In this document: one piece after another, positions 1-3,094 of the stretch
How the letters are laid out: each line of letters opens with the position of its first letter
How positions within the stretch are numbered: position 1 is the stretch's first letter
Assembly: GCF_023638055.1 (NCBI RefSeq)
Contig: NZ_JAKRVY010000008.1
Location: 84,148-136,454, forward strand
Source: Natranaeroarchaeum aerophilus
GTDB lineage: Archaea; Halobacteriota; Halobacteria; Halobacteriales; Natronoarchaeaceae
Reading direction: 5' to 3'
DNA: 52,307 nt
The notes under the pieces: generated by a model
Database searches by the model: none
The model's input: only the letters and a program-made list of their open reading frames with translations
What the model was told of the DNA's origin: nothing
Made by a program: the position numbers and the translations under genes

Positions 1-432
1 TGCAGGCCACTGATCAAGTCCTTCGTATCGTGTAATCTCAAAACTGTATGGTTGGGGATCATCCACGTCCTCATCAAACGTGTAGATACTGAACTCGAGC
101 GTCCCTGTCTCTTCAATCGTACGCCGAGTCCGGTACGTCTCTTCACCTACTGACCCACCAAAGTTTCCACCGCCCCCGCGTGGAAGTGACATGTTAAAAC
201 GAGTGCGATTCCGAGCTTCTTTTTCACTCTCTATCTCAATGACATCGCCCTGACTAACCGACATTTCAAATTCGTCTCTGTCATCCGAACTGTTTATTGT
301 ACCAGATATCTCCTCACCAGGGCTGATTGTGGTCTTTTGGGCCTGAACCGCTTGGGGGACTGCTCCAGCTGCAAACAGCGTGCTCCCAGACAGTTTTAGT
401 AGGTCGCGCCGGTTGAACGGCAGTTCATTCAT
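1..432 (-). CDS. Tat-exported protein, N-terminal part only
   Basis: The reading frame is open from an ATG at 432 to the left edge of the window, giving 144 residues with the C-terminus missing. The N-terminus is a twin-arginine signal (NRRDLLKLSG, residues 7-16) followed by an Ala-rich hydrophobic stretch and a likely cleavage site after VQA near residue 31, so the protein is exported folded. The mature part is beta-rich, with a Gly-rich GGGGNFGG run near residue 103, and resembles secreted pre-peptidase-like or beta-sandwich domains, but I do not recognise the family. A Shine-Dalgarno-like AGAGGTGG lies about 10 nt before the ATG. GC content is low compared with genes beyond 2.1 kb. Confidence 0.75.
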   Translation of the reverse strand, partial: MNELPFNRRDLLKLSGSTLFAAGAVPQAVQAQKTTISPGEEISGTINSSDDRDEFEMSVSQGDVIEIESEKEARNRTRFNMSLPRGGGGNFGGSVGEETYRTRRTIEETGTLEFSIYTFDEDVDDPQPYSFEITRYEGLDQWPA

Positions 433-615
433 CCAATTACCACCTCTGTTCTCGGGACGCGCATCGTCTCGCACTCGGTATCGACACTTCAGAAGCAATC
501 CACACCCGTTTCATGGCAAAAACATACACCCTTTCCAACTTATTTTTTGGCATAGCTGACATATGTGCACACTTGAGTGAGTGGTCGCAGCACCTGCAAA
601 CAACGCAATTCGTCA

Positions 616-642
616 TGCAAGACTCAAGCTCTATGTCTTGCA
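616..642. repeat. Inverted repeat, 8-bp arms
   Basis: TGCAAGAC at 616-623 and GTCTTGCA at 635-642 are perfect reverse complements separated by 11 bp. The arms contain the TGCAA pentamer that is also in the promoter-overlapping repeat at 813-827, so it could be a second site for the same protein. That role is inferred. Confidence 0.6.
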
Positions 643-671
643 CTGGTCACTTATCGATTGGGGGACAGATC

Positions 672-693
672 ACGATCTCACGTGATAGATCGT
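672..693. repeat. Inverted repeat, 7-bp arms around CACGTG
   Basis: ACGATCT (672-678) and AGATCGT (687-693) are perfect reverse complements flanking CACGTGAT, which itself contains the palindrome CACGTG. The spacing is typical of a dimeric regulator site. No function is known. Confidence 0.55.
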
Positions 694-807
694 TCACCTA
701 CTGACCGATGGGTGGCCTCAATCTGGCACCTGCTGAGGAATCCATCAGAGCCCAGTGAACGAATACCGTGGTGGGTGGAAGCGCGAGAGTGAGCGCGCGG
801 GGCACAA

Positions 808-827
808 CACTTTTGCATATCCTGCAA
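808..827 (+). promoter_or_regulatory. Promoter of MNT/HEPN operon with overlapping operator-like repeat
   Basis: An AT-rich element (CTTTTGCATAT, about 810-820) is centred about 27 bp before the ATG at 841, as expected for a leaderless haloarchaeal gene. A perfect inverted repeat, TTGCA-N5-TGCAA (813-827), sits directly on this element. Because the first gene of the operon carries a winged HTH, autorepression by blocking TBP/TFB is the simplest reading, but it is inferred. Confidence 0.5.
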
Positions 828-840
828 TAGTTTGTTTATT

Positions 841-1524
841 ATGCAAGAACAGACACGGGTTCTTCTTGATTTCCCCTTCCCGGAAGAACGGGTCTTTCGA
901 TACCAGGCGATGCAAGACATCCTCCATCATCTGGTTAACAACCCGTTCGAGGGGTTCACGCAGAAAGAATTAGCGACGATCACTGGCTCCGACGTGTCTT
1001 CCGTCTCACGATCTGTGGAACTCCTCGAACGGATGGGTGTCCTCGATATCGCGACCGGGAAACCAGCACAGATTACGATCGACCAAGATCATATCACCGG
1101 ATCTGACCCGCTGTTCACCATCCCACAGCGAGAGTTTCGAAAGCCGGTACAGGCGTTCCTCAATGAACTCACCACGGACATCGGAACCTCTGATGACGTG
1201 GAACAGATTGTCGGCGTCATCCTCTTCGGGAGCGTCGCACGCGGTGGAGCTGATCGAAGTAGCGACATTGATCTCCTCGTCATCGTCGAGGGGAATCTTA
1301 CGTACGGGCGTCGCCTCGTTTCCCAACTCGCCAGAGATCTGGAGGAACGAACGTTCCAGGGAGAACGCTACCAGTTCGAGGTGCTTGTCGAAAACTCCGA
1401 GTCTGCCGCATCTCACGGAGTACCGTTACGGGACATCTTCGATGAGGGAATTGTCCTGGAGCGAACTGACGCTCTGGAGGACGTTCGAGACGCGGTCTAT
1501 GAAACCGAACGAGGAGGCGAGTAA
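841..1524 (+). CDS. wHTH-fused MNT-type nucleotidyltransferase (putative antitoxin)
   Basis: The protein has 227 residues. Residues about 37-80 form a winged HTH (FTQKELATITGS...VSRSVELLERMGVL). Residues about 125-205 form a minimal nucleotidyltransferase with the signature GSVARG (130-135) and DID (142-144), the metal-binding core of MNT/MntA proteins. In type VII toxin-antitoxin systems such enzymes AMPylate and silence a HEPN toxin encoded next to them. A HEPN-like gene follows after 3 bp, so this is probably the antitoxin with an added DNA-binding domain. I chose the ATG at 841 over the upstream TTG at 832 because it lies about 27 bp after the TATA-like element. An uncharacterised haloarchaeal regulator with an NTase domain is the alternative. 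Confidence 0.75.
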   Translation: MQEQTRVLLDFPFPEERVFRYQAMQDILHHLVNNPFEGFTQKELATITGSDVSSVSRSVELLERMGVLDIATGKPAQITIDQDHITGSDPLFTIPQREFRKPVQAFLNELTTDIGTSDDVEQIVGVILFGSVARGGADRSSDIDLLVIVEGNLTYGRRLVSQLARDLEERTFQGERYQFEVLVENSESAASHGVPLRDIFDEGIVLERTDALEDVRDAVYETERGGE

Positions 1525-1527
1525 CCG

Positions 1528-2022
1528 ATGCCGATCACGCTTGATGATGTTGAGCCGGAACTCTCGGATGCGGAGACAGCGTTCCGTCACGGCGGTCAAG
1601 AATCGGAGGTCGGACTTGAGGTCGCTGACGCGGGACTTGTTCAACTTCGCAAGGCCTGTCGATCGCTATCGGGTGCAGACCAACTACTGACAGATGGCTA
1701 CTACACGCTGGCGATCGAAGCAGTGTTCACGTCCATCGAGAAGACGTTCATGTTTTGGCTAATCCACGAGGGGCATCAGGATCCGGCGAACCCACCACAG
1801 TCACACACAACTGCGATCAATCGAAGCGCAGAAGCTGGATTCATCAGTGAAGAAGTCGCGTCTCGACTCGATGACCTCTGGACCGAAAACCGTGCACAGA
1901 CGTACTATCAAGACGGGATGCCTACCCAGGAGCGTGCGGAGACCATGTTGACACTGTCTACTCGAATCCATAGGCAAGTAGTCCATCTGGCCAGCCAATC
2001 TCACGAGTGTATCTGCGATTGA
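1528..2022 (+). CDS. HEPN-domain protein (putative HepT-like toxin)
   Basis: The 164-residue, mostly helical protein is cotranscribed with the preceding MNT gene (3-bp gap). The middle resembles HEPN: SGADQLLTDGYYTLAIEAVFTSIEK around residues 48-72, then LWTENRAQTYYQDG around 117-130. Canonical HEPN RNases carry Rx4-6H, usually followed by xY. Here the Arg is present but the expected His position is Tyr (RAQTYY), so RNase activity cannot be assumed; this variant motif may be the rule in haloarchaeal members. The pairing with an MNT protein is the main functional evidence. The low GC content of both genes fits horizontal spread. Confidence 0.6.
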   Translation: MPITLDDVEPELSDAETAFRHGGQESEVGLEVADAGLVQLRKACRSLSGADQLLTDGYYTLAIEAVFTSIEKTFMFWLIHEGHQDPANPPQSHTTAINRSAEAGFISEEVASRLDDLWTENRAQTYYQDGMPTQERAETMLTLSTRIHRQVVHLASQSHECICD

Positions 2023-2076
2023 GTGTTACCTCGCGTACGGTGGCCCGGTGAATCATCTTCTCACGGTGATAGGCTA

Positions 2077-2086
2077 CTTTTTTATT
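2077..2086. terminator. T-rich terminator-like tract between convergent genes
   Basis: CTTTTTTATT lies 55 bp after the HEPN stop and 9 bp before the stop of the convergent AIR-synthase-like gene. Archaeal termination generally uses such T-runs without a hairpin. The tract reads as T-rich only on the plus strand. Confidence 0.45.
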
Positions 2087-2095
2087 AGAGCACCC

Positions 2096-3094
2096 TCACT
2101 CCCACAGTTCGTACAGCGCCTCGCGTGCCGGTTCGTCGAAGCGCTCCCCATCGAGTACGAGTGCGGGTTCGTCGGCCGCCCGAACCGTCCCGATCTCTGC
2201 CGCCTCAATCCCGGCATCGGCGAGCGCGGCCAGCGCGTCCGCGACGTCCTCCTCGGGGACCGTCGCCAGCGCGGCTCCGGAGCCAAAGGAATGCAGTGGG
2301 TCGACGTCCATCGCGGCACAGAGCCGGGCCGTCTCCTCGCGGATCGGAATGGTTGCCGAGTCGACAACCAGTTCGACCCCCGACGCCGCAGATAGCTCGA
2401 TCAGCCCGTCGAAGACGCCGCCCTCGGTCGGGTCGTGCATCGCAGTCGCGTGCTCGCGCAGAACTCGGGCGTCGGGGACCACGCTGAGATCATCGAAAAA
2501 GTCCGCCGCCCGGTCGACCGTTTCGGCCGAGACGCCCTCCAGATCCTCGCGGAAGTCGGTCGCCAGAATTGCAGTCGCCTCGATCCCTGCACCCTTCGTC
2601 AGGACGATCCGATCGCCCGGTTTCGCGCCGCTCGTCGGGACTTCCCGGTCGGTCCTGCCCATCGCCGTCATCGAGAGCAGCGGCCGGTCGAGCTGGTCGA
2701 CGTACTCGGTGTGGCCGCCGACGATCGAGACGTCGAGGTCGCTCGCCTCGCGTTCGACGTCCGCCATGATCGTCTCGACGCGGTCGTCGCTTCCCGCGCT
2801 GCCCGCCACAGCCTCTCCATCGCCAGCCTCGCTCGGCACCAGGAGGACGGCGGTCAGGAACTCCGGATCCGCGCCGCCGACCGCCACGTCATTACAGGCG
2901 ACGTGGACGCCGAGCGTGCCGATCCGTTCGGCCGCCAGCGATATCGGATCCGAGGAGACGATCAGCCGGTCGTCGCCGAGGTCGATCGCCGCGGCGTCCT
3001 CACCATAGGCCGGCCCGACGAGGACGTCCTCGCCAAGCCCGCCCGTCCGGCCAAGCACCGCCGCCAGCGCCTCGGGATCGAGTTTGCCACCCAT
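2096..3094 (-). CDS. AIR synthase-related protein (PurM/HypE/ThiL superfamily)
   Basis: The 332-residue protein has the two-domain ATP-binding fold of the PurM superfamily. Signs are GPAYGEDAAAIDLGDDRLIVSSDPIS near the N-terminus, HVACNDVAVGGADP (about 60-73), VGGHTEYVD in the middle, AMHDPTEGGVFDGL, and FGSGAALATVP near the end. The closest layout is that of HypE-like AIR synthases, but no hyp genes lie nearby, so the substrate is unknown. I placed the start at 3094 because GKLDPEAL matches the usual family N-terminus; the frame extends to an ATG at 3211, which would add 39 low-complexity residues. It is divergent from the gene at 3260. Confidence 0.8.
   Translation of the reverse strand: MGGKLDPEALAAVLGRTGGLGEDVLVGPAYGEDAAAIDLGDDRLIVSSDPISLAAERIGTLGVHVACNDVAVGGADPEFLTAVLLVPSEAGDGEAVAGSAGSDDRVETIMADVEREASDLDVSIVGGHTEYVDQLDRPLLSMTAMGRTDREVPTSGAKPGDRIVLTKGAGIEATAILATDFREDLEGVSAETVDRAADFFDDLSVVPDARVLREHATAMHDPTEGGVFDGLIELSAASGVELVVDSATIPIREETARLCAAMDVDPLHSFGSGAALATVPEEDVADALAALADAGIEAAEIGTVRAADEPALVLDGERFDEPAREALYELWE

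Follow-up and report, generated by a model that had tools for sequence, protein, structure and literature searches.

A predicted mobile and autoregulated operon of a winged-helix nucleotidyltransferase and a HEPN protein in haloarchaea resembles toxin–antitoxin systems

Several described systems combine a HEPN protein with an MNT-type nucleotidyltransferase (NT) or resemble one half of such a pair. The type VII toxin–antitoxin (TA) pairs HepT/MntA are known from Shewanella (SO_3166/SO_3165), Legionella and Thermococcus, and the Shewanella MntA protein SO_3165 represses its own promoter although it has no predicted DNA-binding domain (PMC4621449). Class II HEPNs lack the RX4H motif and keep a conserved Tyr, and Yao et al. 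knew of no biochemistry for them in 2020 (PMC7641770). PDC-M05 is an NT and HEPN pair enriched in Archaea, with an unconfirmed antiviral role (PMC12988326), and the lactococcal antiphage ribonuclease AbiV is a HEPN protein with an alternative conserved His and no RX4H (PMC3710099). Here we describe a gene pair at positions 841–2022 of a 52,307-nucleotide stretch (the window) of contig NZ_JAKRVY010000008.1 from the haloarchaeon Natranaeroarchaeum aerophilus, which encodes an MNT domain fused to a winged helix-turn-helix (wHTH) domain and, downstream, a HEPN protein. At slightly better than an even chance, we read it as a mobile, autoregulated TA-like operon composed of a HEPN toxin, an MNT-domain antitoxin and a wHTH autorepressor.

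The locus resembles each of these systems in part. With HepT/MntA it shares the gene order, the HEPN and NT folds, the GSX10DXD motif, a Tyr beside the Arg motif and promoter palindromes, whereas its predicted toxin has no RX4HXY and its MNT has a dedicated wHTH. Like the Class II HEPN/MNT pairs (PF05168/PF01909; PMC7641770), it sets a GSX10DXD MNT next to a HEPN that has the conserved Tyr and no RX4H; unlike them, the MNT is fused to a wHTH, Y-Y replaces the D-Y or R-Y-P of the relatives and the PF05168 match is below the cut-off. PDC-M05 likewise has two genes and is enriched in archaea, and its M05A models extend over both the wHTH and the NT part of the window protein, but the window HEPN has no M05B match and the haloarchaeal branch has R-x3-Y-Y and a Cys/His set; we found no description of its operators. 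AbiV, which to our knowledge is not an MNT-paired protein, has a similar fold (Z 9.1), and the weak PF18728 matches of four relatives also point towards it, whereas its sequence similarity is marginal. The first-pass annotation of this DNA had proposed a self-regulating type VII module. The self-regulating and TA-like parts of that proposal stand, on the palindromes, the pairing and the asymmetric loss of the predicted toxin described below; the lack of RX4HXY rules out strict type VII membership, which weakens the claim that the pair is type VII and leaves the idea that it functions in the type VII manner as strong as before. Because PDC-M05A covers wHTH and NT, PDC-M05 is an NT and HEPN pair and SO_3165 also represses itself, the architecture was already known; new are the clade-specific operators, the R-x3-Y-Y motif and the lineage-specific C44/H148/C161/C163 set.

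Both genes lie on the plus strand. The wHTH-MNT gene (841–1524; 227 amino acids from its ATG), the predicted antitoxin and autorepressor, ends in TAA (1522–1524), and after the three bases ccg the ATG of the HEPN gene (1528–2022; 164 amino acids), the predicted toxin, follows. Since both are conserved across Halobacteria, the genes and their pairing are not due to chance. The MNT core noticed in the first reading is real: the GSX10DXD motif at 1228–1272 (plus strand; GSVARGGADRSSDID, residues 130–144, with G130, S131, D142 and D144) fits exactly and is invariant across 24 aligned MNT homologues, Pfam finds Polbeta (8.9e-9) and NTP_transf_2 (9.2e-9), and the top Foldseek match of the model, in which both domains are visible, is the MntA antitoxin 7bxo (E 1.7e-4). 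So is its fusion to a wHTH (898–1095, plus strand, residues about 20–85), which is indicated by Pfam (MarR_2, 2.5e-5, below cut-off), by the structure model (helices 22–33, 41–48 and 52–64, strands 68–70 and 78–80) and by Foldseek matches of this part to Zalpha and MarR winged-helix proteins. The fusion had been regarded as unusual, a view that no longer holds: the PADLOC PDC-M05A models reach over both wHTH and NT (PDLC04368, residues 22–155, 4.5e-12; 9.9e-18 for the models in the sister clade 2), and a wHTH-MNT adjoining a HEPN is detectable in 6 of 14 more distant loci sampled. Outside Halobacteria, wHTH-MNT genes adjoin other PF05168-type HEPNs (L149, L152, L153, L154, L156 and L159), so that the architecture reaches across the phylum. 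An aminoglycoside nucleotidyltransferase identity was rejected, as the ANT(9) match (29.5 bits against a cut-off of 340) reflects the shared NT motif only. Cysteine is nearly absent from the MNT family (0.09% of residues).

The helical protein three bases downstream proved to have a HEPN fold. Its PF05168 match is below threshold (E 0.018, 15.7 bits against a gathering cut-off of 22); among its relatives PF05168 is the most frequent Pfam match (14 of 29, best E 7e-4), and four match PF18728 weakly. An NCBIfam match to YchF, at 15 bits far below the cut-off of 279, we regard as a chance hit. Sequence searches against solved structures, with the single protein or a profile, returned nothing relevant, and fold comparison alone gave matches. 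The AlphaFold2 model (mean predicted local distance difference test score, pLDDT, 87.6) aligned in VIA-align to AF_0298 with Z 15.0 (root-mean-square deviation 2.5 Å over 123 residues), to TT1696 with Z 13.1, to ST0689 with Z 12.6 and to the toxins of solved HEPN–MNT systems with Z of about 8–11 (10.7 for the AMPylated toxin 8xdj, 10.2 for 6m6u), values in which the ranking outweighs any single Z, as helical bundles inherently score high (top Z around 14 for models of this kind). Of the 36 best rows, almost every one is a HEPN protein or a helical nucleotidyltransferase domain, and the top matches are small HEPN proteins from archaea and thermophiles, including 2hsb and 1o3u, which have been placed under PF05168 (PMC3710099). 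The window HEPN matches no PADLOC M05B model; some relatives do so weakly (best 0.0079).

In a 56-member family alignment of the HEPN, in which residue conservation was counted, the position of the catalytic His is occupied by Tyr, as first noticed: RAQTYY (1891–1908, plus strand, residues 122–127), that is R122-x-x-T125-Y126-Y127, stands in place of RX4H. The suggestion that this motif be checked for conservation gave a clear answer, with R122 in 55 of 56 members, Y126 in 54 and Y127 in 55, and H93 of a QSH motif (1804–1806, plus strand), a candidate alternative catalytic His, in 55; E64 and E71 are each present in all 56. HXY was not found at the RX4HXY positions of this alignment. The same genome supplies a control: two HepT-like genes of class I (PF01934; L001 and L002; G000 C2:371003–371362 and C3:99942–100277) have the canonical RX4HXY, reading RNVLAHEY and RNVLAHTY. 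In relatives from outside the haloarchaea the motif is R-x3-D-Y, R-x3-T-Y or a close variant, usually accompanied by S-H or T-H, and an SH/TH motif is found in most PF05168 relatives. R122 and Y127 register with the R and Y of RxxADY relatives in a profile alignment that is a hint only (weak score, profile–profile probability 2%), and Y127 is a candidate counterpart of the Tyr of R-x3-D-Y proteins and a candidate AMPylation site. In PF05168, D replaces the RX4H His in several cases, and a conserved His elsewhere, shared by AbiV, could contribute to activity (Anantharaman et al., PMC3710099). As the same loss is described for PF05168 and Class II HEPNs, it is a property of the class and not a one-off. 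The dilemma posed in the first-pass annotation, that without this His the protein must cleave RNA differently or be purely regulatory, does not follow from the missing His alone, the loss being usual in PF05168 'HEPN-T' and Class II proteins, where the conserved Tyr and another His remain.

Upstream of the pair, a T-rich TATA-like box, TTTTGCATAT (811–820, in a core promoter region at 811–840, plus strand), stands about 30 nucleotides 5′ of the ATG. This placement fits a leaderless transcript, a promoter arrangement familiar from haloarchaea, and the T-run at −30 to −27 is kept in both clades of the family. Overlapping the box is a palindrome, TTGCATATCCTGCAA (813–827), in which TATCC separates TTGCA and TGCAA. 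A perfect TTGCA-N5-TGCAA occurs upstream in 20 of 23 non-redundant clade-1 relatives, which are not fully independent of one another, against 0.0005 expected from mononucleotide shuffles. Information content is 0.11 bit per position at −75 to −36 versus 1.02 at −35 to −1; because the DNA at −75 to −36 is unconserved, recent shared ancestry alone is insufficient to explain the operator. Many relatives have a full second palindrome over the start codon (for example TTGCACAATATGCAA, 19 bp from the first, centre to centre), of which the window keeps the right half alone, ATGCAA at 841–846. In sister clade 2, with HEPNs 40–44% identical, a different palindrome, TTCCTAATAGGAA, is found twice at a distance of about 18 bp, so that the tandem spacing is alike in both clades (18–19 bp), and the recognition helix differs between them (NQATVSK or NQGTISK versus DVSSVSR).

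These operators are dedicated. The TTGCA-N5-TGCAA operator has a single match in the window and, even when one mismatch is tolerated, a single match in the genome, and a global-regulator role was rejected on this count; the clade-2 operator likewise occurs once in the genome, at the clade-2 module. Altogether the genome holds four wHTH-MNT/HEPN modules whose promoters carry different palindromes, the other three (loci L140, L144, L055, L142, L141 and L143; G000 C1:378469–379621, C1:569572–570703 and C4:59146–60277) having CCGTGATACGG, TTCCTATTAGGAA and GGTTCATGAACC, respectively. We infer that the modules are dedicated, insulated autorepressors; self-regulation of the pair is well supported by this upstream sequence pattern.

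Pairing of the two genes is strict. Among 391 Halobacteria genomes, 217 have both, 6 the HEPN only, 14 the MNT only and 154 neither, and 52 of the 53 strongest HEPN matches lie directly after an MNT, which bears out the expectation that the homologues would usually occur together. Loss, by contrast, is asymmetric: strong MNT matches have no strong HEPN beside them in 13 of 65 cases, and of 44 MNT-seeded loci 29 have both genes intact, 11 have an intact MNT whose HEPN is broken or absent, and none pairs an intact HEPN with a broken MNT; in 3 more the MNT is broken and the HEPN either broken too or absent, and 1 is cut by a contig end. This count is biased towards intact MNTs, and the HEPN-seeded count agrees with it. 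Loss of the HEPN with the MNT kept is the pattern expected if the HEPN is the toxin and the MNT the antitoxin. Some orphan MNTs without an intact HEPN (L015, L017, L032 and L038) keep their palindromes (L032), and in others these are degenerate or lost (L038); such orphans may serve as antitoxins against modules elsewhere.

We suggest that the HEPN is a toxin, most likely a dimeric ribonuclease that would use R122 and the alternative H93 instead of RX4H. The MNT domain would bind it and probably transfer AMP to Tyr127 (or Tyr126) beside the predicted active site, and the fused wHTH, probably as a dimer, would bind TTGCA-N5-TGCAA over the TATA box and the start codon and repress the operon. A drop in antitoxin would then both derepress the promoter and leave the toxin unmodified. 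Several points weigh against this reading besides the bias of the MNT-seeded count. The HEPN has no canonical ribonuclease motif, and the role proposed for H93 draws on its conservation and on remarks about HEPN-T and AbiV (PMC3710099). We found no publication describing toxicity or AMPylation in any Class II HEPN–MNT pair. Last, one strong HEPN (in genome G026), the exception among the 53 above, adjoins an MNT truncated at its N terminus, which still has the NT domain and has no wHTH.

A further set of conserved residues could add a layer of control. C44 in the first bundle helix (1657–1659) and H148 (1969–1971) are invariant in the 56 members, and of the C-terminal pair C161-x-C163 (2008–2016, all plus strand) C161 is kept in 55 and C163 in 56; C44, C161 and C163 are the sole cysteines of the window HEPN. 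The set was not seen in RxxDY-type relatives, appears lineage-specific and could form a metal or redox site. If the first and last bundle helices pack antiparallel, C44 and H148 would come to lie at similar heights, and the tail, modelled at a pLDDT of about 54–74, could fold back. A toxin gated in this way, with the Cys/His site locking the tail over the bundle, activity controlled by zinc or oxidation in addition to nucleotidylation by the MNT, and an R122/H93/YY active site replacing RX4H, is a tentative idea to which we give a minority chance.

Less probable than the TA reading, and in our view unlikely, is a purely regulatory module without a toxin, in which a catalytically inactive HEPN serves as partner or substrate and its nucleotidylation by the MNT adjusts how the wHTH binds DNA. 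The missing RX4H and the operator dedicated to its own promoter agree with this, as does the observation that NT-fused HEPN domains typically lack catalytic residues and are substrate-binding or regulatory (PMC3710099). Yet a regulator with itself as sole detected target has no evident use, conservation of H93 and R122 in 55 of 56 members speaks for more than a dead partner, and the frequent loss of the HEPN with the MNT kept, together with the patchy, plasmid-borne, multi-copy spread, fits an accessory toxin better. Lower again we place an antiviral, abortive-infection system of PDC-M05 type; the biochemistry would be the same, and its main role would lie in activation on infection. It is favoured by the span of the PDC-M05A models over wHTH and NT, by the weak M05B matches of some HEPNs, by the enrichment of PDC-M05 in archaea (PMC12988326) and by the structural match (Z 9.1) to AbiV, an antiphage HEPN ribonuclease by its PDB title; no defence-island context is established at the locus, and the proposal is mostly a claim about use that does not compete with the TA mechanism. 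Reversed polarity, with the MNT as an RNA or protein nucleotidyltransferase toxin (as AbiE or MenT) that the HEPN restrains, has precedent in AbiEii and MenT and in an early prediction of the MNT as the toxin (PMC2701414), but is very improbable because intact MNTs often stand without a HEPN (13 of 65; 11 loci) and strong HEPNs almost never without an MNT, and because the MNT gene comes first in the pair, as it does in HepT/MntA.

Signs of transfer surround the TA-like operon that we favour. G+C content around the pair is 0.50–0.57 versus 0.65–0.70 to its right, and the pair lies within a 3.4-kb insertion (window 1–2099; contig C8 82855–86246, with its right end at window position about 2099 and part of the stretch masked) relative to a congener (G033) whose flanks are about 89% identical and which has 236 bp there. 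HEPN relatives occur in 79 plasmid records; the ten best plasmid matches listed all carry 'hypothetical protein' as the annotation of the HEPN, and in six of the ten the match also covers a 'nucleotidyltransferase domain-containing protein'. A scan of viral contigs found no HEPN relatives, and tblastn found no MNT in phage records. To judge by these sequence comparisons, the gene pair is mobile. The same insertion carries a gene with a Tat-like signal on the minus strand (about 1–430). On the chromosome of Halomicroarcula sp. SYNS111, a clade-1 (L013) and a clade-2 (L034) module lie about 7 kb apart.

The module offers a tractable test, with both genes present in more than half of the haloarchaeal genomes sampled and a defined 15-bp operator. 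The difference in operator and recognition helix between the clades is a natural swap, and R122, H93, Y126/Y127 and C44/H148/C161/C163 can be mutated. Work on this branch would make clear if Class II HEPNs act as toxins, and at which sites modification takes place.
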